From an uncultured Pseudodesulfovibrio sp. (GTDB lineage: Bacteria; Desulfobacterota; Desulfovibrionia; Desulfovibrionales; Desulfovibrionaceae): a DNA stretch of 64,000 bases. The stretch spans positions 1,557,518-1,621,517 of the forward strand of contig NZ_OY782498.1 in assembly GCF_963677845.1 (NCBI RefSeq). Direction: 5' to 3'. This document shows, piece by piece, positions 26,505 through 40,120 of this stretch. Below the pieces are notes generated by a model. The model was not told the origin of the DNA, ran no database searches, and saw nothing but the letters and a program-made list of their open reading frames with translations. Each line of letters begins with the position of its first letter. The stretch's first letter is position 1. Made by a program: the position numbers and the translations under genes.

Positions 26505-27242
26505 TTGCAGAAACGGTATTTTCCCATCGCCATCGTGACAGGTGTCCTCTTTCTGATTGCCATCGGAGGCTACATAATTCCGGCTAGTTCCGAAGGTCCT
26601 CCTATACGCGCCCTGCTCGACAACAAGGGTGGAAAAGTTATTCTCAACCACTCAAGTCATATACAAACCATGCAGGAAGACTGTGGAGTGTGCCATCACA
26701 CGACTGGCGGCGATCAAAATCCTCCGGCATGTGCTGATTGCCATGCCAAAAAATTTGATGAAGCCTTTGCCGCTAACCATCAAAAAGCATTAAACGACAC
26801 ATTATGTATTTCTTGTCATCATCCCCATGCCAGCATCGACAATTTCTCCCATGACGACCACGCTGACGACTACTCGGAAGGAGATTGTCAATCCTGTCAC
26901 CATGATCCGTCCATTGAATCAGAACCTCAAGCCTGCTCGAACTGTCACATGGATGGCAGTAACAGTGTGCTCAACCTCAAAGAAGCCACACACACCAGAT
27001 GCGCAAATTGCCACGACGACATGTATAAAGACGGCATCAAAGGATGTTCCAATTGTCACACTCGGTCCACAGATATGATGAAACCGGAACAACAGAGGTG
27101 TGAAAGCTGTCATGAAACACCTGTCGACCAGCTTATTCCAACCACAATGAACGCATTTCACACTCAATGCATGGGGTGTCACGAAGACAATGGCACAGGA
27201 CCGTTCGGCGACGAAGCTTGTTACCAATGCCATATGAAATAG
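26505..27242 (+). CDS. decaheme c-type cytochrome encoded with the Rnf operon
   Basis: A 245-residue protein with an N-terminal signal or anchor helix (about residues 7-27) and exactly ten CxxCH heme motifs from about residue 65 to the end, so it should carry ten c-type hemes and face the periplasm. The start codon is TTG at 26505 with AGAGG upstream, while the ATG five bases earlier is out of frame. The gene leads the rnfCDGEAB cluster, ending 14 bases before rnfC. In Desulfovibrio such a cytochrome is known to be associated with Rnf and connects it to periplasmic cytochromes. The anchor may stay uncleaved. Confidence 0.93.
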   Translation: MQKRYFPIAIVTGVLFLIAIGGYIIPASSEGPPIRALLDNKGGKVILNHSSHIQTMQEDCGVCHHTTGGDQNPPACADCHAKKFDEAFAANHQKALNDTLCISCHHPHASIDNFSHDDHADDYSEGDCQSCHHDPSIESEPQACSNCHMDGSNSVLNLKEATHTRCANCHDDMYKDGIKGCSNCHTRSTDMMKPEQQRCESCHETPVDQLIPTTMNAFHTQCMGCHEDNGTGPFGDEACYQCHMK

Positions 27243-27256
27243 GGGATCACTACCAT

Positions 27257-28465
27257 ATGACCAAATTCAACTTCAGCCTCAAATCCGGCGACACAGGTCC
27301 CCTTATCAAAGCATCCAGCCCAGACATGCTGCAGATTCCCATAGATGGCATGACCCCTGTCATGGCAGTTGGAGATCAGGTGCTGGGAGGGACAAAAGTA
27401 GCCATTGCCAATGCTGACGACGAAGGCGATATGCACTCGCCGCTGGCCGGGGTCATTCGAGAAATTCAACCCTACGCCATGCTTATTGAAGTTCGAGGAA
27501 ATGAACGAATTAAACCACATGAACCATGTGTTGATAGTGGGGACCAACTCCGTTCCTGGCTCAAGGACAAAGGAGTCTGCACTCGCCACCTCATCAAAAC
27601 CGCGACACTGATCATCAACGCAGTTCCACCGGAGCCGGGTATATCAATATATGACCCACTACTCCGCGATTACCGAAAGACATTGGAACTCGGTCTTGAA
27701 ACTGTTCAGAAAATAGTTGAACCGAACAAAATGTTTCTCGTGGCAGCCAAAGGCAATCGGGCCAATGCGTTTGCCAACTGTACGGTCATGCACGTCGCTC
27801 CCATTTATCCCAACGGACTTGATCCGCTGATCATCAAGACTGTTACAGGACAAGAGGTGCTTCCGGGCATGCTCCCGGATAATGGCACCATTCTATCTGT
27901 GAAAGACCTTTACTTCATAGGTCGTGTCATGGAGACAGGTCGTCCGGTTACGGAAACTGTCATGACCATCAATGGGAATAACCATCTTGTCGCTGTGGGA
28001 ACACCTGTCGGCTTTCTCGCTGCCAAAGCCGACATTACCGTGCACCCCGGTGACAGGGTAGTCATTGGTGGCCCACTCCGAGGACTGGCCGCTGTCAATC
28101 TTGAACAGGGAGTGGATAAAGATGCTTCAGGACTTCATATCCTCCGCCAGAGCGAAGGAATGAAAGCCACCGACAATTTCTGTTTGGGATGTGGTGAATG
28201 CGAACGCCATTGCCCTGCCCGAATCATGCCCGGTCTCATCAGCCGGTGTGCCGAATTCAAACAGTTCAAACGAGCTGAAGCATACCACATTCATTCCTGC
28301 ATGGAATGTGGCCTATGCGGTTACTGGTGCACGGCGGGACGCCCTCTACTACAATACATCCGACTGGCAAAATATGAATTAGCCCTGCTGGCGGGAGCCG
28401 TACAACCTCCTCGCCCTACACCTGAAGAAATCCAAAAGGGACAATCAGGAGACGAGCCATGCTAA
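27257..28465 (+). CDS. rnfC: Rnf complex subunit RnfC without the NADH/FMN loop
   Basis: A 402-residue protein. It begins with the RnfC-type sandwich domain and ends with two 4Fe-4S motifs (CLGCGECERHC and CMECGLCGYWC). In normal RnfC the Nqo1-like domain carries a glycine-rich GLGGAGFPT-type loop for NADH and FMN and a GAECEP motif; here the equivalent stretch reads LRSWLKDKGV then NAVPPEPGIS, so both are absent or degraded. The protein therefore probably passes electrons through its Fe-S clusters without using NADH itself. The ATG at 27257 has AGGGGA upstream. The last codons overlap rnfD by seven bases. Confidence 0.92.
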   Translation: MTKFNFSLKSGDTGPLIKASSPDMLQIPIDGMTPVMAVGDQVLGGTKVAIANADDEGDMHSPLAGVIREIQPYAMLIEVRGNERIKPHEPCVDSGDQLRSWLKDKGVCTRHLIKTATLIINAVPPEPGISIYDPLLRDYRKTLELGLETVQKIVEPNKMFLVAAKGNRANAFANCTVMHVAPIYPNGLDPLIIKTVTGQEVLPGMLPDNGTILSVKDLYFIGRVMETGRPVTETVMTINGNNHLVAVGTPVGFLAAKADITVHPGDRVVIGGPLRGLAAVNLEQGVDKDASGLHILRQSEGMKATDNFCLGCGECERHCPARIMPGLISRCAEFKQFKRAEAYHIHSCMECGLCGYWCTAGRPLLQYIRLAKYELALLAGAVQPPRPTPEEIQKGQSGDEPC

Positions 28466-29439
28466 AACAACTCCAACCTATCTTGACAGTATCGGCCCCT
28501 CCTCATGTTCATTGCGGCAGAACCATCAAGCGATACATGCTCGAAACAGTGCTTGCGTTGTTACCTGCAGCAATCATGGCTGTCATAATCTTCGGCATGG
28601 ATGCTCTCAGGATCATGGCGTTATCCTGCTCTGTGGCAGTCGCAACGGAATGCATCTGCAATAGAGTTATGAAACGGGAACAATCAGTGGACGACCTCAG
28701 CGGTCTGCTGACAGGTCTCCTCTTTGCATTTCTGCTTCCTGCCTCAGCACCATGGTGGTTGGTCTTCATCGGTTCGGCTTCAGGCATCATCCTTGGCAAA
28801 ATGATCTTCGGAGGACTCGGAGGCAACCCGCTGAGTGCCCCCCTTGTAGGATGGGCATTATGCCGCATCTCATGGGCAGACTTCATGGACACCAACGCGG
28901 CCATGTTGAATTCGATACTTCCAGCACCGCTCCAACAACTCAAACATTTTGGTTTGGAATCAATCCAATCAATCGATTTGAGCTCGTTACTTCTCGGACA
29001 ACAACTTGGTGGACTGGGTGAAATTCATATCGCAGCCCTGCTCGCTGGCGGTATTTTCCTGCTCGCACGTCGCCACATCCGCTGGTACATTCCAACAGGA
29101 TTCATCATTGGCTTGCTGGCAACGGCTTGGATTTATCAAATCATCGACCCGACCATGTATGCATCACCTATTTTCCATCTGCTTGCGGGGGGCTCAATTT
29201 TTGGAGCATTCTTTCTTGCAACAGATGCAGCATCGACTCCCGTGGGGTTGGTTCCGTCCCTGCTTTTCGGTCTTATCGCTGGTGCAATGGTCATCGTCAT
29301 CCGTGTATATGGCATTTATCCAGACGGAGTTCCCTTTGCTATCCTATTAGCCAATCTGTTCACTCCACTGCTTGACCGCATACGCCCCAAACCATTCGGC
29401 GGCTCATACTCTTTTGAAGACACGGAGGACGCAGCATGA
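28459..29439 (+). CDS. rnfD: Rnf complex membrane subunit RnfD
   Basis: A 326-residue protein of about nine or ten transmembrane helices, as expected for the RnfD/NqrB family. An ATDAAST segment near residue 257 fits the region where FMN is bound covalently to Thr in the family, though I cannot be sure that the exact consensus is kept. RnfD helps to conduct ions. The start overlaps rnfC and the end overlaps rnfG by four bases (ATGA), so the operon is tightly coupled. Confidence 0.94.
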   Translation: MLKQLQPILTVSAPPHVHCGRTIKRYMLETVLALLPAAIMAVIIFGMDALRIMALSCSVAVATECICNRVMKREQSVDDLSGLLTGLLFAFLLPASAPWWLVFIGSASGIILGKMIFGGLGGNPLSAPLVGWALCRISWADFMDTNAAMLNSILPAPLQQLKHFGLESIQSIDLSSLLLGQQLGGLGEIHIAALLAGGIFLLARRHIRWYIPTGFIIGLLATAWIYQIIDPTMYASPIFHLLAGGSIFGAFFLATDAASTPVGLVPSLLFGLIAGAMVIVIRVYGIYPDGVPFAILLANLFTPLLDRIRPKPFGGSYSFEDTEDAA

Positions 29440-30014
29440 AAGAAATGATCAAGATGATTCTTGTGCTGTCACTTATTTGCGGCCTCTCCGGCCTGACGTT
29501 GGCAACCGTCCGGCAGGCTACCAGCCAACGCATTGAAGAACAGGTCATGACATATGTTCAAGGCCCTGCTCTGGCACAAATATTCACAGATTATGACAAT
29601 AATCCGGTCAAAGATCGCAAAGTCTTTAATTTTCCCGATGGTTCCATCACCGTTTTTCCAGCCATAAAAAACGGCACCTTGACCGGAATAGCTCTTGAAA
29701 CTTTCGGCAAAGGCTACGGCGGTGATATCGGCGTCATGGTCGGATTCAATCTCGACGGCACTATGCTGAAAGGTATAGGCATCACTACTCTCAAAGAAAC
29801 ACCCGGTCTTGGCGCACGCGTGGTCGAACCAGACTACCGCGACCAATTCAAGGGGCATACCACGACATCCCTCGCCTTGAAAAAACAGGGAGGCGATATC
29901 GCAGCCATCTCCGGCGCGACTATTTCGTCAACTGGCACAGTGGCTGCTGTCAACGACGCAATACAGATATTCACAAAAATCAAAGACAAACTCCCCACAG
30001 CTTGGGAATCGTAG
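29436..30014 (+). CDS. rnfG: Rnf complex subunit RnfG (covalent FMN)
   Basis: A 192-residue protein with one N-terminal transmembrane helix and a periplasmic FMN-binding domain. The attachment motif SGATISST is clear near residue 167; the ATI-S-S/T Thr carries FMN by a phosphoester bond after transfer by the ApbE flavin transferase. No apbE gene is in this window, so it must be elsewhere. RnfG receives electrons between RnfC/RnfB and the membrane subunits. Its ATG overlaps the rnfD stop. Confidence 0.95.
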   Translation: MKEMIKMILVLSLICGLSGLTLATVRQATSQRIEEQVMTYVQGPALAQIFTDYDNNPVKDRKVFNFPDGSITVFPAIKNGTLTGIALETFGKGYGGDIGVMVGFNLDGTMLKGIGITTLKETPGLGARVVEPDYRDQFKGHTTTSLALKKQGGDIAAISGATISSTGTVAAVNDAIQIFTKIKDKLPTAWES

Positions 30015-30023
30015 GATATTGTC

Positions 30024-30698
30024 ATGAGCATGTGGAAAGAATTCTCCAAAGGCCTGTGGCGCGATCTGCCCCCTTTCAAGCTGGTACTTGGCCTCTGTCC
30101 GGTGCTAGCTGTGACCAAAACAGCATACAACGGCTTCGGCATGGGAATGGCCGTCATATTTGTCCTTGCCCTGTCCAACCTGTTCGTCTCGTTGCTCCGC
30201 AAAGTCATTCCAGCCAAAGTACGCATCGCCTGCTTCATCGTGGTGGCAGCATCGCTGGTTGTCTGCGTGGAATTGCTCATGCAGGCATATGCTTACCCAC
30301 TATATCTACAACTCGGCATCTTCGTCCCTCTCATCGTTGTCAACTGCATCATTCTGGGACGAGCCGAAGCATTCGCTTCCAAAAACCCAGTCCATCTGGC
30401 TGTTGCTGATGGTCTTGGCATGGGCGTAGGATTCACTCTCTCACTGACTTTCCTTGGCTCCATCCGTGAACTCTTCGGGTACGGTACATGGTTCGGCCTG
30501 CATATCATGGGGGACTGGTTTGAACCGTTCACCTTCATGGTCGAGGCCCCCGGTGCCTTCGTCTGTCTCGGACTCGTATTAGCTGGCATGAATGCACTGA
30601 CCAACTGGCAACGCAAGACCAAAGGACTGGAAGCCATCGAAGGACCAGTCCACGACTGTAAGACCTGCGGCATGTGTTCAACGAAACCGGGAATGTAG
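30024..30698 (+). CDS. rnfE: Rnf complex membrane subunit RnfE with Cys-rich tail
   Basis: A 224-residue protein with six hydrophobic segments, member of the RnfA/RnfE/NqrD/NqrE group. RnfA and RnfE pack with opposite topologies and bind an Fe-S cluster between them. The very end carries a CKTCGMC segment, a CxxCxxC pattern not required for the family, which could bind metal or pass electrons. It lies nine bases after rnfG. Confidence 0.94.
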   Translation: MSMWKEFSKGLWRDLPPFKLVLGLCPVLAVTKTAYNGFGMGMAVIFVLALSNLFVSLLRKVIPAKVRIACFIVVAASLVVCVELLMQAYAYPLYLQLGIFVPLIVVNCIILGRAEAFASKNPVHLAVADGLGMGVGFTLSLTFLGSIRELFGYGTWFGLHIMGDWFEPFTFMVEAPGAFVCLGLVLAGMNALTNWQRKTKGLEAIEGPVHDCKTCGMCSTKPGM

Positions 30699-30707
30699 GG
30701 AGAAACC

Positions 30708-31283
30708 ATGGACTACTTCGTACTCATTATCGCCGCCATATTCGTCAACAACATCGTGTTGGCGCAGTATCTGGGTAACTGCCCGTTCATTGGCACATCC
30801 AAAGAATCAAGTGTAGCTATCGGCATGGGACTGGCCGTCGTCTTCGTGGCCGCCATGGCCGCATGTATCACATGGTGTGTCCAAAAATTCATGCTCACAC
30901 CTAATGATCTGGGATATCTTCAAACCATCGCCTTTATTCTTGTTATCGCTGCACTGGTTCAATTCGTAGAAATGTTCCTGAAAAAAGCAATACCACCACT
31001 CTATAAATCACTTGGTATCTTCCTGCCACTCATCACCACCAACTGCGCAGTGCTCGGTATCGCTATCATCTGTCAACGTGAAGAATATTCTTTCGTTGAA
31101 ACCCTGATATTCTCAATAGCATCAGGCTTCGGTTTCATGCTTGCACTCGTCGTGCTGGCTGGTATTCGTGAACGTCTCGACCTTGCACGTGTCCCGGTAG
31201 CGATGAAAGGCACCCCGCTTGGTTTGATTATGGCCGGCCTCATGTCTTTGGCATTCTTTGCCTTCAAGGGCATGGCTTCATAG
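30708..31283 (+). CDS. rnfA: Rnf complex membrane subunit RnfA
   Basis: A 191-residue membrane protein with six hydrophobic segments and the conserved NNIVLAQYLGNCPFIGTS start of RnfA/NqrE, including the conserved Cys that helps bind the Fe-S cluster in the RnfA-RnfE pair, and a TNCAVLG segment with a second one. Normal length. It starts 9 bases after rnfE and ends 12 bases before rnfB. Confidence 0.95.
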   Translation: MDYFVLIIAAIFVNNIVLAQYLGNCPFIGTSKESSVAIGMGLAVVFVAAMAACITWCVQKFMLTPNDLGYLQTIAFILVIAALVQFVEMFLKKAIPPLYKSLGIFLPLITTNCAVLGIAIICQREEYSFVETLIFSIASGFGFMLALVVLAGIRERLDLARVPVAMKGTPLGLIMAGLMSLAFFAFKGMAS

Positions 31284-31295
31284 GAGTATTGAAAT

Positions 31296-33398
31296 ATGAT
31301 CACAGCTTCCGTACTCGTCCTTCTCGGTATCGGCTTTACTGCCGCTGTCATTCTGGCCGTGGCCTCCAAGGTACTCTATGTTTATGAAGACCCACGCATC
31401 GCTCAAGTTGAATCAGTCCTTGCTGGTGCCAATTGTGGCGGTTGCGGATATCCCGGTTGTGCCGGAGCCGCTCAAGGCGTTGTCGAAGGCAAAGCCGGTG
31501 CCACTGTCTGTGTCATTGGTGGCGATGAAGTGGTTGCGAACGTTGCCGCTATTATGGGGCTTGAATTCTCCTCCATGGAAAAACAAATAGCCTTTGTGGA
31601 CTGTACTGGCGGCACTCGCGCCGAAGATGTGTACATATACGAAGGGGCCAAAGACTGTCGCGCACAGCATCTACTCTACAGCGGCTCAAAGATGTGTCCT
31701 GAAGGATGTCTTGGTTACGGCACCTGTGTAACAGCCTGTCAATTTGGCGCTATCGAAATGGGGCCCAATGGTTATCCAGTCGTTGATCCGAACCTCTGCA
31801 CCGCCTGCGGTGGTTGCGAACAGGTCTGCCCGCGCGGTGTCATAACAATATGGGGTATGACTGCGCGCATCATGCACCTCAACGAAACTACGGATTGTCT
31901 GGCTCCTTGTCGCCAACGCTGCCCCGGCCAAATCAACATCCCACGCTATATTGAACAGGTGTCACGCGGCGACTATGCTGGTGCCTTGGAAACCATCCGT
32001 GAGCGCATTCCCATGCCGCTCTCAATCGGACGAGTCTGTCCTCATCCCTGCGAAGGCGTCTGTCGTCGTGGTCATGTGGATGAGCCTGTGGGCATCAACA
32101 TGATAAAAAGATTTGCCGCAGACTGGGAAATGAACTCAGGGCAACGGCTCTCTATTTCCTGTGCACCTGATACTGGCCGCAAAATCGCTGTAGTAGGTGG
32201 CGGCCCAGCCGGACTGTCCTGTGCCTTTTTCCTACGCCGTCTTGGACACAGTCCAACCATTTTTGAATCCATGCCAGCCCTTGGAGGACAGCTTCGTTAC
32301 GGCATCCCGGAATACCGATTGCCAAAGGATGTTCTTGATTGGGAGATACAGGGTATCATCGACCTCGGCATTGACGTTGAATACGAAAATTTTTTCGGTA
32401 CAGACTTTACGCTGAACTCATTAAAAGAAGACGGCTACGAAGCAGTCTTTCTCGGAATTGGCGCATGGATGAACATGAACCTGCGCATTGAAAACGAGGA
32501 AGCCAAAGGAGTTGAAACCGGCACAGAATTCTTAACCAAGGTCGGCCTTGGAATTGAAACTGGTGTCGGCAAAAAGGTCGTGGTCATCGGCGGCGGCAAC
32601 ACAGCCATCGACGCAGCCCGGACCGGTGTCCGACTCGGTGCGGACGTGACTCTTATGTACCGACGCACTCGAGATGAAATGCCAGCCAACATCGAAGAAA
32701 TCATCGGTGCAGAAGAAGAAAACGTTAAATATCTCTTCCTGGCTGCCCCCACACGCATTGTTACCGACGACTCCGATCACGTCACTCATGTTGAATATAT
32801 TGAAATGGAACTGGGAGAACCTGACGACTCAGGTAGACGTCGTCCAATTCCCATAGAAGGATCTGAAACGCTCATTGAAGCCGATACCGTATATACTGCC
32901 ATCGGCCAAAAGCCAGAACTCTCCTGCCTGTACGAAAATGGAACATGTGACCTTGAAGAAACACGTTGGCGCACATTAGGCGCCGATTCAGACACTCTCC
33001 AAACAGCTCTCCCACATGTCTTCACCGGCGGAGACATGCATACCGGCCCCGCGCTGGTAATCACTGCGCTTGGTGAAGGCAGAAAAGCGGCTCGCTCAAT
33101 CCACCAGTATCTCAATGAAGGCGCTCCGCATATCTCGGTCAACACCCAACGTGAAATGATCGATTACACAATGTTCACCAACGTCCCTGATGTTGGTCTG
33201 CGCGACCGCTCAAAAATGCCAAACCTCATTGAATGTGATGAACGAACCTGCACGTTCAAGGAGATTGAAGGCGCAATAAGTGAAGTCGAAGCAAAACATG
33301 AAACCTGTCGCTGCTTACGCTGTGGCTTGACCTGTTACAACCGAGATCTCGTCGATGGACAGGAATGCATTGCTGAAGAGTGTGTGAAAAATCCGTAA
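31296..33398 (+). CDS. rnfB: RnfB fused to a GltD-like FAD/NAD(P)H oxidoreductase
   Basis: A 700-residue protein where RnfB alone is usually under 350. Residues 1-25 are the membrane anchor; 47-72 hold the RnfB four-cysteine cluster (C47, C50, C55, C72); 134-178 hold two ferredoxin-type 4Fe-4S motifs (C134, C138, C144, C148 and C168, C171, C174, C178). From about residue 187 on the chain is a GltD/NfnB-like module: Cys-rich segment (CLAPCRQRCPG), FAD-binding GGGPAGL at 301-307, pyridine nucleotide-binding GGGNTAID at 432-439 and YRRTRDEMPA at 455-464, a motif seen in NADPH-using relatives. The tail has CRCLRCGLTC. I infer NAD(P)H is oxidised or formed on this subunit instead of RnfC. Confidence 0.93.
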   Translation: MITASVLVLLGIGFTAAVILAVASKVLYVYEDPRIAQVESVLAGANCGGCGYPGCAGAAQGVVEGKAGATVCVIGGDEVVANVAAIMGLEFSSMEKQIAFVDCTGGTRAEDVYIYEGAKDCRAQHLLYSGSKMCPEGCLGYGTCVTACQFGAIEMGPNGYPVVDPNLCTACGGCEQVCPRGVITIWGMTARIMHLNETTDCLAPCRQRCPGQINIPRYIEQVSRGDYAGALETIRERIPMPLSIGRVCPHPCEGVCRRGHVDEPVGINMIKRFAADWEMNSGQRLSISCAPDTGRKIAVVGGGPAGLSCAFFLRRLGHSPTIFESMPALGGQLRYGIPEYRLPKDVLDWEIQGIIDLGIDVEYENFFGTDFTLNSLKEDGYEAVFLGIGAWMNMNLRIENEEAKGVETGTEFLTKVGLGIETGVGKKVVVIGGGNTAIDAARTGVRLGADVTLMYRRTRDEMPANIEEIIGAEEENVKYLFLAAPTRIVTDDSDHVTHVEYIEMELGEPDDSGRRRPIPIEGSETLIEADTVYTAIGQKPELSCLYENGTCDLEETRWRTLGADSDTLQTALPHVFTGGDMHTGPALVITALGEGRKAARSIHQYLNEGAPHISVNTQREMIDYTMFTNVPDVGLRDRSKMPNLIECDERTCTFKEIEGAISEVEAKHETCRCLRCGLTCYNRDLVDGQECIAEECVKNP

Positions 33399-36614: not shown

Positions 36615-36644
36615 TTGACATTATTTCTTGAAGAGGTGTATGAA
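36615..36644 (+). promoter_or_regulatory. predicted promoter of the aldehyde oxidoreductase gene
   Basis: A perfect TTGACA (36615-36620) is followed after 18 bases by TATGAA (36639-36644). Transcription would start near 36651 and leave a leader of about 67 bases. The leader contains an inverted repeat TGCGT-N8-ACGCA (36671-36688) and an AATATTAA element (36691-36698). Confidence 0.6.
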
Positions 36645-36717
36645 AGTCTTGTTAGACAGTTTACCATTATTGCGTCAACACGAACGCATCAATATTAACA
36701 AAGCAGAGGGTAATACA

Positions 36718-38445
36718 ATGCCTCAGATTCTCAGAATCAACTGCCGAACCAAAGAATACAGCTTTGATGAAGTCGGCCCTTACGTCAATCTTGGTGGTCG
36801 TGCTCTGACCTCCCGTCTCATCAACAAAGAAGTTCCTGCCGACTGCCATCCGCTGTCCGCAGACAACAAGTTGGTCTTCGCTACTGGCCTGCTGGGCGGT
36901 TCCACTGCTGCCAACTCCGGTCGTGTGTCTGTTGGTACCAAATCTCCACTGACCGGCGGTATCAAGGAATCCAACTCCGGCGGCCTGTTTGCCCACAAGA
37001 TGCCAAAAATGGATCTGCTGGCGATTGTCCTTGAAGACAAGCCTGCCGAAGAAGCACCCTTTTCCACTTTGTTCATCACTGACGGGAAAGTCGAATTCCG
37101 TGATGCTACCGATATTGTCGGAATGGACAACTACCCTGCACATGACAAACTGCTTGAACAGTATGGCGACAAACTGTGCGCAGCCATGATCGGCCCTGCT
37201 GGTGAAACAGTTCGTCAGACAGCGACCATTCAGTTCACAGATCCTTATAAGCGTCCTGCACGTTCTGCTGGCCGCGGCGGCACCGGCGCTGTCATGGGCT
37301 CCAAGAAAATTAAGGCTATCGTACTTGATCCCGAATTTGCCAAAAAGGTCACCCCTGTCGACAACGACAACTTTAAAACCGCTCGCTCCACCTGGGTCAG
37401 TATTCTCAAGGGCCATCCGGTCACTTCTGAAGGACTTCCCGGTTTTGGTACCGCAGTGCTTGTAAACGTTGTTAACGAAGCAGGCGCTCTGCCCACCAAA
37501 AACTTCCGTTACGGTCAATGTGAACACGCTGCAGATATCTCCGGCGAAAAAATGGCCGAGATCATCGAATCCCGTAAAGGCAAAACCACTGAAGGCTGTC
37601 ATGCAGGTTGCATCATCCAGTGCTCTCAGCAGTACAACGATGCCGATGGTAATTATCTGACTTCCGGTTTCGAATACGAGACCATTTGGGCCTTCGGTGC
37701 AAACGCACTGATCAAGGATTTTGACGACATCGCCACCATGGACCGCATTTGCGACGATAAAGGTATGGATACCATCGAAGCAGGAAACACTATTGCTGTA
37801 GCCATGGACGGCGGCATCATCCCCTGGGGCGACGGCAAAGCTGCTATTGAATTGCTCAAGAAAGTCGGTACCAACGACCCCATGGGCATGATCATCGGTA
37901 ACGGTGTTGAGTTTGCTGGCGGCGCATTCGGTGTTGACCGTCTGCCCACTGTCAAACGCCAGTCCATGCCCGCCTATGACCCTCGTGCGGTCAAGGGTGT
38001 TGGCGTGACCTACGCAACGACTGCTATGGGCGCTGACCACACCGCCGGATATGGTGTTACTGCGAACCTGCTGGGTGTCGGTGGTTCTATCGACGGTCTC
38101 AAGAAAGAAGGCAATATTGAGTTGTCCAAAAATCTTCAGGTCGCTACTGCTGCCATCGATTCCATGGGCTTCTGCCTGTTCGTAGCATTCGCCGTGCTGG
38201 ATTCCGACAACGGTGTCCAGACCATGGCCGACCTTGTTCAGTCCTGGACCGGCAACACCTTCACCCCTGACGATCTGATCGCCCTTGGTGTCGGCGCCAT
38301 GAAAGATGAGCAGGCGTTCAACGAACGTGCCGGCTTCACTAAGGCAGACGACAAACTGCCCCGTTTCTTCGAAACCGATCCGCTTCCGCCTCACAATGTC
38401 ACTTGGGATTACGACGAAGACGAGCTTCAAGCCGCCAAAGTCTAA
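36718..38445 (+). CDS. tungsten-containing aldehyde:ferredoxin oxidoreductase
   Basis: A 575-residue protein of the AOR family. The ligands of the 4Fe-4S cluster are C294, C297 and C301 (CHAGCIIQC) plus C486, and the GRGGTGAVMGSKKIKAI and GADHTAG segments bind the tungsten-bispterin cofactor. It oxidises aldehydes to acids and reduces ferredoxin. The first in-frame Met is 30 codons earlier, but the ATG at 36718 has AGAGGG eight bases upstream and fits the family start. The next genes (MoaD-like, ThiF-like, regulator, tupABC, mobB) give it a complete tungsten supply. Confidence 0.95.
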   Translation: MPQILRINCRTKEYSFDEVGPYVNLGGRALTSRLINKEVPADCHPLSADNKLVFATGLLGGSTAANSGRVSVGTKSPLTGGIKESNSGGLFAHKMPKMDLLAIVLEDKPAEEAPFSTLFITDGKVEFRDATDIVGMDNYPAHDKLLEQYGDKLCAAMIGPAGETVRQTATIQFTDPYKRPARSAGRGGTGAVMGSKKIKAIVLDPEFAKKVTPVDNDNFKTARSTWVSILKGHPVTSEGLPGFGTAVLVNVVNEAGALPTKNFRYGQCEHAADISGEKMAEIIESRKGKTTEGCHAGCIIQCSQQYNDADGNYLTSGFEYETIWAFGANALIKDFDDIATMDRICDDKGMDTIEAGNTIAVAMDGGIIPWGDGKAAIELLKKVGTNDPMGMIIGNGVEFAGGAFGVDRLPTVKRQSMPAYDPRAVKGVGVTYATTAMGADHTAGYGVTANLLGVGGSIDGLKKEGNIELSKNLQVATAAIDSMGFCLFVAFAVLDSDNGVQTMADLVQSWTGNTFTPDDLIALGVGAMKDEQAFNERAGFTKADDKLPRFFETDPLPPHNVTWDYDEDELQAAKV

Positions 38446-38768: not shown

Positions 38769-39605
38769 GTGACAGGGATTTTGGACAACATTCGCGCGTA
38801 TGCCAAAAGCTCTCTACTCCCTTGGGGAATAACAGGTTCCATAATATCCAATGAGGCCGTCTCTATGCTGGCCCAGCAATATCTCGTGTCGGGTCATGTT
38901 GTTGAGTGTCAAGCATTAACAGAGGGAATTTACCCACTCAGATACCTTAGAAACCTGCAGTCCATTACGATCGAAGGACAACAACGCCTTCTGAAATCAA
39001 CCGTTGCACAAGTTGGCCTTGGTGGACTTGGCGGCAACCTACTCGAACAATTCCTGCGAATGGGCATCGGAACCATTCATGCTGCGGATGGCGACCACTT
39101 TGAGGAAAGTAATCTTAATCGACAACAACTATCCACACTGGGTAACCTCAACCAATCCAAAGCGCATGTTGCAACCCAAAGAGCCGAAGCAATCAATCCA
39201 TCAGTAGAATTCTCTGCAACAGAAAAATTTCTGAACGTAGACTCCTTACCCGACTTCCTGTCTGAAGCCGATATTGTTATTGATGCTTTGGGAGGGCTGG
39301 AAACACGCCTTCACCTGCAAAAAGCTGCTGCTAAAGCCAAAGCACCTCTTATCACAGGAGCTTTAGCCGGATGGACAGGGTATGTTAGCGTTGTTATGCC
39401 TAATGAAATTGGTCCGGCAGACATCATGGGCGTCGACAACGAAGCAGAACGCATACTTGGCTGCCCTGCCCCTTCCGTCACGTTGATAGCGTCACTTATG
39501 ACGACTGAAGCGATAAAAATCCTTACCGACAACCACTCAACGTTACAGGGGAAAATGCTTGTCATAGACCTTGCCTCGTCCACCTTTGAAACAGTCTCTC
39601 TGTAA
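38769..39605 (+). CDS. ThiF/MoeB/HesA-family adenylyltransferase
   Basis: A 278-residue E1-like enzyme with the ATP-binding GLGGLGGNLLEQ motif near residue 83, a DGDHFEESNLNRQ segment, and a Cys near residue 238 (LGCPAPSV). It should adenylate the C-terminal Gly of the MoaD-like protein encoded 4 bases upstream. The zinc CxxC pairs of MoeB are missing. The start is GTG at 38769 with GGAGG upstream. An N-terminal 60-residue extension before the ATP-binding domain is also visible. Confidence 0.9.
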   Translation: MTGILDNIRAYAKSSLLPWGITGSIISNEAVSMLAQQYLVSGHVVECQALTEGIYPLRYLRNLQSITIEGQQRLLKSTVAQVGLGGLGGNLLEQFLRMGIGTIHAADGDHFEESNLNRQQLSTLGNLNQSKAHVATQRAEAINPSVEFSATEKFLNVDSLPDFLSEADIVIDALGGLETRLHLQKAAAKAKAPLITGALAGWTGYVSVVMPNEIGPADIMGVDNEAERILGCPAPSVTLIASLMTTEAIKILTDNHSTLQGKMLVIDLASSTFETVSL

Positions 39606-39733: not shown

Positions 39734-40120
39734 ATGACAAAAGAACTAGATACAACACTTCGTCTTCGCATATGGCTTGAACAAAAAGACAAGACCTATA
39801 TTGGCATTGGAAGCACGCTGCTGCTCAAACATGTCGAAGATCTCGGCTCTCTTCGAAAGGCGGCCGAAGCACTCGGGATGTCTTACAGGCGGGCTTGGGG
39901 AAAACTCAAAAATGCTGAAGAACGCATAGGCCAACCTCTGGTTGAAAAAACCAAAGGTATGGGACAACGATTCAACCTATCTCCTTACGGCAAAGAGTTG
40001 ATGGAAAAATTTCTCAATTTTTATCTCGATGTCGAAGACTATGCCACCAAACGGGCTGGAGAACTCCTGGAAATGGATGTCAAAAAGTCCGGCGAATTCT
40101 ATCGTGACGACACGCAATAG
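39734..40120 (+). CDS. ModE N-terminal-type HTH regulator without metal-binding domain
   Basis: A 128-residue protein of the ModE winged-helix type (GSLRKAAEALGMSYRRAWGK near residue 37, then EERIGQPLVEKTKG). ModE proper carries two TOBE domains that bind molybdate or tungstate; they are absent here. Single-domain regulators of this type in Desulfovibrio are known to control tungstate uptake and tungstoenzyme genes, so it is a good candidate for the regulator of tupABC and the AOR. How it senses the metal is not evident. There is no clear Shine-Dalgarno before the ATG. Confidence 0.87.
   Translation: MTKELDTTLRLRIWLEQKDKTYIGIGSTLLLKHVEDLGSLRKAAEALGMSYRRAWGKLKNAEERIGQPLVEKTKGMGQRFNLSPYGKELMEKFLNFYLDVEDYATKRAGELLEMDVKKSGEFYRDDTQ

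Follow-up and report, generated by a model that had tools for sequence, protein, structure and literature searches.

Rnf is among the chief energy-conserving complexes of anaerobes and is generally regarded as a ferredoxin:nicotinamide adenine dinucleotide (NAD+) enzyme. A Tol2-type Rnf, or Rnf2, is described for Desulfobacula toluolica Tol2 and Desulfococcus multivorans, in which RnfB has about 700 residues and NAD-binding sites, RnfC has no NADH-ubiquinone-oxidoreductase domain, a cytochrome gene lies in the cluster, and a partner of RnfC other than NAD is still to be identified (PMC5109826). The subject of the present analysis is an operon of this kind from an uncultured Pseudodesulfovibrio sp., located in a stretch of 64,000 nucleotides (the window) that corresponds to C1:1557518-1621517 of a one-contig genome of 3.70 Mb. 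It encodes a decaheme c-type cytochrome, RnfC, RnfD, RnfG, RnfE, RnfA and an RnfB fused to a flavoprotein module, in that order (Table 1). The original prediction had left the novelty of the arrangement open; its outline is not new, having been described as the Tol2-type Rnf, but that account concerns Desulfobacteraceae, whereas here Pseudodesulfovibrio and its relatives have the fused type together with a decaheme cytochrome. We read the complex as a Tol2/Rnf2-type, cytochrome-linked Rnf that would pass electrons from NAD(P)H to a periplasmic cytochrome, with a degenerate return leg; we infer its cofactors, path, direction and preference for NADP, and consider the chances of this reading to be about even.

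The Rnf assigned to Desulfovibrionaceae is of the Rnf1 type (PMC11887813). In Desulfovibrio vulgaris and D. alaskensis the dhcA-rnfCDGEABF operon has the gene order found here, with the decaheme cytochrome first, but apbE/rnfF follows the operon (PMC4841214). Ferredoxin:cytochrome c3 is named as an option for the D. vulgaris enzyme (PMC10920352). The only ApbE found in the Pseudodesulfovibrio genome is encoded about 0.22 Mb from the window operon and about 12 kb from a second operon of the same design. The window RnfG belongs to the NCBIfam family RnfG_DVU2794, and DVU_2792 RnfC is given as 43.5 kDa; D. vulgaris RnfB is given as 30.9 kDa and is therefore not fused, unlike that of the window.

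The Rnf of Methanosarcina acetivorans is an archaeal ferredoxin enzyme with a plain RnfB. Beside its rnf genes, as in the window, lies a multiheme cytochrome gene, that of MmcA, and electrons are proposed to exit to the cytochrome (PMC6703419). Two-subunit Nqr/Rnf-like complexes resemble the window complex in having an RnfD-like subunit without a flavinylation site and in the outward flow of NAD(P)H electrons proposed for them, but they carry the NAD domain on the RnfD-like subunit and consist of two subunits only (PMC11334425). The solved Rnf complexes of Clostridium tetanomorphum, Acetobacterium woodii and Azotobacter vinelandii (7zc6, 9eri and 8ahx) share with the window the RnfC fold and iron-sulfur (Fe-S) sites, the flavin mononucleotide (FMN) threonine of RnfG and, in our survey, the iron-site cysteines of RnfA and RnfE. 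They differ in that the window operon is missing the RnfC loop and the RnfD threonine, and has an NfnB-like module in place of the further ferredoxin segment of RnfB.

RnfC has lost the NADH/FMN loop and kept its clusters

The window RnfC retains two 4Fe-4S motifs, with all eight cysteines present, and lacks the NADH/FMN loop of the family, as predicted from the sequence. The family model TIGR01945 matches it in one stretch that begins at model position 153 and scores 169 bits (cut-off 245.95), and alignment to the solved chains of 7zc6, 8ahx and 9eri is good only from residues 154, 109 and 118, respectively, after a weak N-terminal stretch. Against 7zc6_C the offset is 13 residues over window residues 33-81 and has reached 48 by residue 154. 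About 35 residues are therefore absent from the intervening stretch, where the loop would lie, in addition to 13 N-terminal ones. A GLGGATFP-type loop was found nowhere in the window RnfC by alignment or survey, and the GAECEP segment of the family reads AVPPEP. In the loop-bearing RnfC of locus L121 the region runs GLGGATFP...NGAEWEP; the window protein has a shorter stretch there, ending in NAVPPEP. The eight cysteines are invariant in 26/26 aligned loopless RnfCs. The AlphaFold2 (AF2) model has a pLDDT of 90.5, and its top five Foldseek matches are all RnfC chains (TM 0.76-0.79 on the query). An SLBB domain gives no Pfam match at E <= 0.01, yet TIGR01945, the solved RnfC chains and the fold search all span that region.

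The NuoF-type FMN/NADH domain PF01512 has no match at E <= 0.001 across the whole genome, and its trace in the window RnfC is sub-threshold (20.5 bits, cut-off 31.2). A second rnfC does exist, in a complete operon on the minus strand (L003:3355-10212, G000:C1) that encodes a 10-heme cytochrome, RnfC, D, G, E, A and a fused RnfB of 702 residues, 62% identical to that of the window. Its RnfC is also loopless, and a TIGR01945 search of the genome returned no third long RnfC.

The window RnfC served as the query for a survey of relatives and found a match in 155 of the 247 genomes of the order; sequence surrounding selected matches was fetched as 80 regions, and to these were added 80 loci from named genomes (the best 80 of 407 relatives) and 36 from other Desulfobacterota, chosen partly from a search with matches in 212 of 297 genomes. 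Together with the genome's own two operons this gave 198 loci, reduced to 171 by removing 10 without an RnfC open reading frame (ORF) and 17 duplicates (those sharing exactly their last 250 residues; rows that were merely near-identical stayed in). The resulting counts are descriptive: the rows are related rather than independent, a cytochrome-type RnfC was the query for most loci, and some loci scored as lacking a cytochrome start near a contig edge. The loop is absent from RnfC in 163 of the 171 loci and present in 8. Where a loopless RnfC is accompanied by RnfD, G, E and A (152 loci), RnfB is fused in 70, plain in 72 and not found in 10; one row scored as plain, L245, probably represents a fused gene that has been broken. 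A cytochrome with at least four CxxCH motifs occurs in 134 of these 152 loci (62 fused, 64 plain, 8 with RnfB not found). All four loop-bearing loci with RnfD, G, E and A, and the later L281 and L282, have a plain RnfB and no cytochrome (0/6).

A TIGR01945 search of the 247 genomes matched 164 at E <= 1e-12, 11 of them above the curated cut-off. Among the best 30 loci, rnfD stands beside rnfC in 13, three of which have the loop. The other 17 (L262-L268, L270-L279) encode loop-bearing RnfC-like proteins, mostly with GAGGAG[LF]P, and have no rnfD in the fetched stretch; no protein of this rnfD-less type was found in the window's genome. Loci L118-L120 and L122-L125, from other families of the order, combine a loopless RnfC with a plain RnfB and yielded no multiheme cytochrome, although the stretch of L125 is short and contains no RnfB, and that of L118 starts near a contig edge.

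RnfD lacks the covalent-FMN threonine, and the sites of the proposed outward route are kept

RnfD of C. tetanomorphum carries covalent FMN on Thr153 (PMC9588780). Direct pairwise alignment with 7zc6_D places Ala156 of the window RnfD opposite this residue. The threonine is present in 6/6 loop-bearing operons that cover the site, namely four survey rows together with L252 and L253 (L121/L251, whose RnfD is truncated at a contig end, stands outside the count). Both L252 and L253 come from Desulfovibrionaceae and read SSATPL at the site; their genomes, G149 and G082, also carry loopless fused operons (L053 and L051, respectively), which provides an internal contrast. Loopless rows have the threonine in 7 of 162 cases (two of the 162 are gaps), and in three of those seven the following proline is missing. 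With a cytochrome present, the loopless counts are 1/62 for fused RnfB, 0/64 for plain RnfB and 0/17, including the two gaps, where RnfB was not found. Without a cytochrome they are 3/8 for plain RnfB, 3/8 for fused RnfB and 0/3 where neither RnfB nor cytochrome was found.

The corresponding threonine of RnfG is retained in 156 of 159 rows, four of them loop-bearing; two rows have serine and one has a gap. The iron-site cysteines, Cys25/113 of RnfA and Cys25/108 of RnfE, are kept in 99-100% of 156 rows. The parts for outward electron flow are thus conserved, and the return route has lost two sites, the RnfC loop and the RnfD threonine. With the RnfD threonine lost and that of RnfG kept, the return leg from RnfG through RnfD and RnfC to NAD looks disabled and the outward leg intact. 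Our partial coverage of the literature on sulfate-reducer Rnf met no statement of this RnfD loss, which may already be in print. It is a correlate that sharpens the mechanism and is possibly unreported.

The RnfB fusion and its NAD(P)H-type module

The original prediction of a 700-residue RnfB with an intact-looking flavin adenine dinucleotide (FAD) and NAD(P) module holds, and all three of its motifs are present (Table 1). The closest solved chains to the module are those of NfnABC (9bov, 9n5u) and Stn (8oh5), with NfnL (5jca) also near; identity to these four is 34-40%. Like NfnB/NfnL, NfnABC and Stn, the module has FAD and NAD(P) Rossmann motifs, but here it is fused to a membrane-anchored RnfB, the operon has no gene for an NfnA partner, and the Fe-S ligands are altered, the NfnB motif RCx2Cx4Cx3CPV (PMC6405883) reading Cx3Cx3CP in the window protein. 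The module begins where plain RnfBs run on into a further ferredoxin segment. Fourteen cysteines up to RnfB residue 178 are kept in 75/75 non-redundant fused RnfBs. The structure model of RnfB is weak at residues 92-140 and 678-700. NfnB binds NADPH (PMC6405883), and by this analogy NADPH would be a likelier partner of the module than NADH. Separate from the operon, C1:3545685-3547305 contains adjacent matches to GltD and DHODB_Fe-S.

In the NAD(P) site, the presence of YRR varies with the neighboring cytochrome: the motif is found in 37/37 fused RnfBs beside a 10-heme cytochrome and is missing from 17 of 19 beside a 5-heme cytochrome, whereas the remaining 19 divide into 12 with and 7 without it. 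The 5-heme paralogue class (loci L051, L053, L054, L057-L060, L068, L070, L098, L103, L104, L107, L128, L130, L147 and L157) has a degenerate NAD(P) motif, for instance GDTNTAMD with no YRR, and keeps the FAD and Fe-S motifs. To judge from these motifs, the fused module of this class may no longer use NAD(P)H.

The fusion takes several genomic forms. In Desulfovibrionaceae loci a GltD-type protein at the end of the operon carries the N-terminal domain of RnfB (44 rows), and in L141 and L146 the fusion is split into two ORFs; what had been read as a loss in this family may be this RnfB/GltD-type fusion. Five Desulfobacterota genomes (G282, G490, G472, G471 and G283) have a fused RnfB away from the rnfCDGEA cluster (L212, L214, L217, L218, L219 and L239, L240, L242, L243, L244). 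The stretches fetched around those clusters, two of which (L243 and L244) stop close to a contig edge, contain no RnfB match, an arrangement that could resemble loss of rnfB. In family f44 (L224:7970 and L225:2361) a GltD-like protein of about 595-600 residues with a partial RnfB part is encoded apart from an rnf operon that has a plain RnfB and a loopless RnfC.

Descent of the fused and plain forms

The original prediction held that the NAD(P)H site had moved from RnfC to RnfB. Taken as one coupled event, in which RnfC lost the site as RnfB gained the module, this is contradicted by the survey, in which the loop is absent about as often with plain as with fused RnfB, and by the degenerate NAD(P) motif of most 5-heme fused proteins. 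The history of the two forms was followed with quick LG+G4 tree searches. In a core tree (C-terminal part of RnfC, with RnfD, G, E and A; 109 rows, midpoint root) the group with plain RnfB and a cytochrome is nested among fused rows, and a single clade of all fused rows against plain ones is rejected (delta lnL 940; approximately unbiased test, p-AU 5e-5). A tree of the N-terminal RnfB domain separates 64 fused from 46 plain domains by one branch, with support 90 but not starred, in a set that does not contain Tol2 by name. The same domain data do not reject one clade of fused and plain forms from Desulfovibrionaceae and Desulfomicrobium (p-AU 0.625). Plain RnfB of the Desulfovibrio/Desulfomicrobium/Halodesulfovibrio group may have replaced a fused form or been re-derived, and the trees do not establish the replacement.

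Proposed electron route and alternatives

In the proposed route the NfnB-like module of RnfB would exchange electrons with NAD(P)H, more probably NADPH than NADH, on its FAD. Electrons would then travel along the Fe-S clusters of RnfB and the RnfA/RnfE iron site to reach the FMN of RnfG on the periplasmic side, which would hand them to the decaheme cytochrome and the pool of periplasmic cytochrome c3. In this scheme the canonical return leg, consisting of the RnfD FMN, the Fe-S clusters and FMN of RnfC, and NAD+, would be degenerate through loss of the RnfC loop and the covalent-FMN threonine of RnfD. The complex would thereby connect NAD(P)H of the cytosol with carriers of the periplasm across the membrane, in principle reversibly. 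Two published accounts are consistent with this route: for two-subunit Nqr/Rnf-like complexes without the RnfD/NqrB flavinylation site, an exclusively outward flow of NAD(P)H electrons is proposed (PMC11334425), and tests for coupling from ferredoxin to NAD+ in D. alaskensis vesicles were unsuccessful (PMC4841214).

Several points weigh against an outward route of this kind. The fully conserved clusters of RnfC favor some role for this subunit, which is probably still redox-active given its invariant cysteines, and an exit purely through RnfG leaves them unexplained. FMN might bind RnfD non-covalently. Loss of the RnfD threonine is not strictly tied to the cytochrome, since it is shared by 13 of 19 loopless rows scored as lacking one, a rough score in that L118, L146 and L150 start near a contig edge and L237 has a 4-CxxCH ORF missed by the profile search. 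In D. alaskensis, a species whose proteins are known here from papers only, mutation of the cytochrome carries no fitness cost on ethanol, formate or H2, substrates on which rnf mutants fail (PMC4841214, citing Price 2014). A published rnfC primer for strain G20 of this species has a single match, with one mismatch, in 288 genomes of the family, and that match, in G093, lies away from the rnfC of the genome.

The conserved RnfC clusters would find a use if the polarity of the complex were swapped, so that NAD(P)H entered at RnfB while a soluble carrier, in the simplest case ferredoxin, docked at the RnfC clusters; the result would be an ion-coupled NAD(P)H:ferredoxin enzyme with the cytochrome as an accessory tap. 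The otherwise intact fold of RnfC, the retention of RnfD, the requirement for an RnfC partner other than NAD in the Tol2 account (PMC5109826) and the lack of phenotype of dhcA mutants (PMC4841214) all agree with such a swap. We nevertheless think it unlikely, as the missing FMN threonine of RnfD makes the known RnfG-to-RnfC path less likely and a cytochrome accompanies the great majority of loopless operons. The original prediction instead envisaged a three-way exchange, in which the GltD-type FAD would bifurcate or confurcate electrons among NAD(P)H, ferredoxin at the RnfB clusters, and the cytochrome by way of the membrane. The module and the cytochrome that it invokes are present, and the nearest solved relatives of the module come from the bifurcating NfnABC and Stn. 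A direct role for ferredoxin is uncertain, as the module stands where plain RnfB has its further ferredoxin segment, which is missing here. The operon also has no NfnA, the cluster-binding motif of NfnB is altered, and the GltD and DPD members of the family are not known to bifurcate; this exchange appears quite improbable.

An ordinary ferredoxin:NAD+ Rnf, with the RnfB module as an extra and NADH bound to RnfC in a manner not visible in the sequence, would fit the family models, which still label the proteins as Rnf subunits, and the literature, in which Desulfovibrio Rnf is treated as a ferredoxin:NAD+ enzyme (PMC4841214) or this is one of two options (PMC10920352). The missing loop and N-terminal residues of RnfC, the lack of a PF01512 match in the genome and the loss of the RnfD FMN site as well make it very improbable.

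The route from NAD(P)H to the cytochrome might be extended to the class as a whole. The entire return leg, both the RnfD FMN and the RnfC FMN/NADH site, may have decayed together in the cytochrome-linked Rnf of sulfate reducers, turning a loop from cytosol to cytosol into a conduit to periplasmic cytochromes from NAD(P)H, where RnfB is fused, or from ferredoxin, where it is plain. We advance this tentatively, as a generalization slightly more apt to fail than to hold. If it is true, a cytochrome-linked Rnf with plain RnfB would have no recognizable NAD site and would not be a ferredoxin:NAD+ oxidoreductase; if both sites are missing class-wide, the ferredoxin:NAD+ reaction would be wrong for these sulfate reducers. 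The complex would then be a concrete candidate for the connection of cytosolic NAD(P)H and ferredoxin with the hydrogen/formate cytochrome network of the periplasm.

The operon and its surroundings

The seven genes occupy positions 26505-33398 on the plus strand and adjoin one another through gaps of at most 14 bases or short overlaps, an operon-like layout that unites all six Rnf subunits (A, B, C, D, G and E). Family matches are far from chance, with best E-values per gene from 1e-20 (cytochrome) to 4e-143 (RnfB). RnfA, RnfD, RnfE and RnfG exceed their TIGR subfamily cut-offs; RnfC and RnfB (65.9 against 68.7) fall below. As predicted, the operon opens with the decaheme cytochrome, whose N-terminus is a hydrophobic segment resembling a signal or anchor. 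The nearest named relative is locus L132 of Pseudodesulfovibrio sp. isolate OB3, with an RnfC that is 94% identical.

Table 1. Genes and sites of the Rnf operon, in window positions.
Feature	Position	Strand	Evidence
Decaheme c-type cytochrome, 245 aa, TTG start	26505..27242	+	10 CxxCH; Pfam Cytochrom_CIII 1.7e-19
RnfC, 402 aa, without Nqo1-type NADH/FMN loop, two 4Fe-4S motifs kept	27257..28465	+	TIGR01945, structure alignments, AF2 model
RnfD, 326 aa	28459..29439	+	TIGR01946 253.5 bits, cut-off 207.05
RnfD Ala156 at covalent-FMN threonine position	28924..28926	+	Alignment to 7zc6_D Thr153, residue check, survey
RnfG, 192 aa, FMN-bind domain	29436..30014	+	NCBIfam RnfG_DVU2794 298.5 bits
RnfG Thr162 in SGAT, FMN attachment site kept	29919..29921	+	Alignment, residue check, survey
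RnfE, 224 aa	30024..30698	+	TIGR01948 235.6 bits, cut-off 213.4; Cys25, Cys108 conserved
RnfA, 191 aa	30708..31283	+	TIGR01943 255.8 bits, cut-off 229.3; Cys25, Cys113 conserved
RnfB fused to NfnB/GltD-like flavoprotein, 700 aa	31296..33398	+	Family models, nearest solved chains
RnfB part: membrane helix, FdI-type cluster, 2[4Fe-4S] ferredoxin segment	31296..31865	+	RnfB models, residues 1 to ~190
NfnB/GltD-like module, residues ~197-610	31884..33125	+	Fer4_20, Pyr_redox_2; PRK12771, PRK12814, gltA models; TMt 0.80 to NfnL 5jca
FAD motif GGGPAGL, RnfB residues 301-307	32196..32216	+	Glycine motif in 75/75 fused RnfBs
NAD(P) motifs GGGNTAID and YRRTRDEMPA, RnfB residues 432-464	32589..32687	+	Motif survey of fused RnfBs
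C-terminal Cys triad, RnfB residues 673, 676, 680; possible further Fe-S ligands	33312..33335	+	Each Cys in 75/75 fused RnfBs

Elsewhere in the window, by the look of their translations only, lie an aldehyde:ferredoxin-oxidoreductase-like gene (36628-38445), a MoeB/HesA-like gene (38769-39605) and a gene for a ModE-like regulator (39734-40120).

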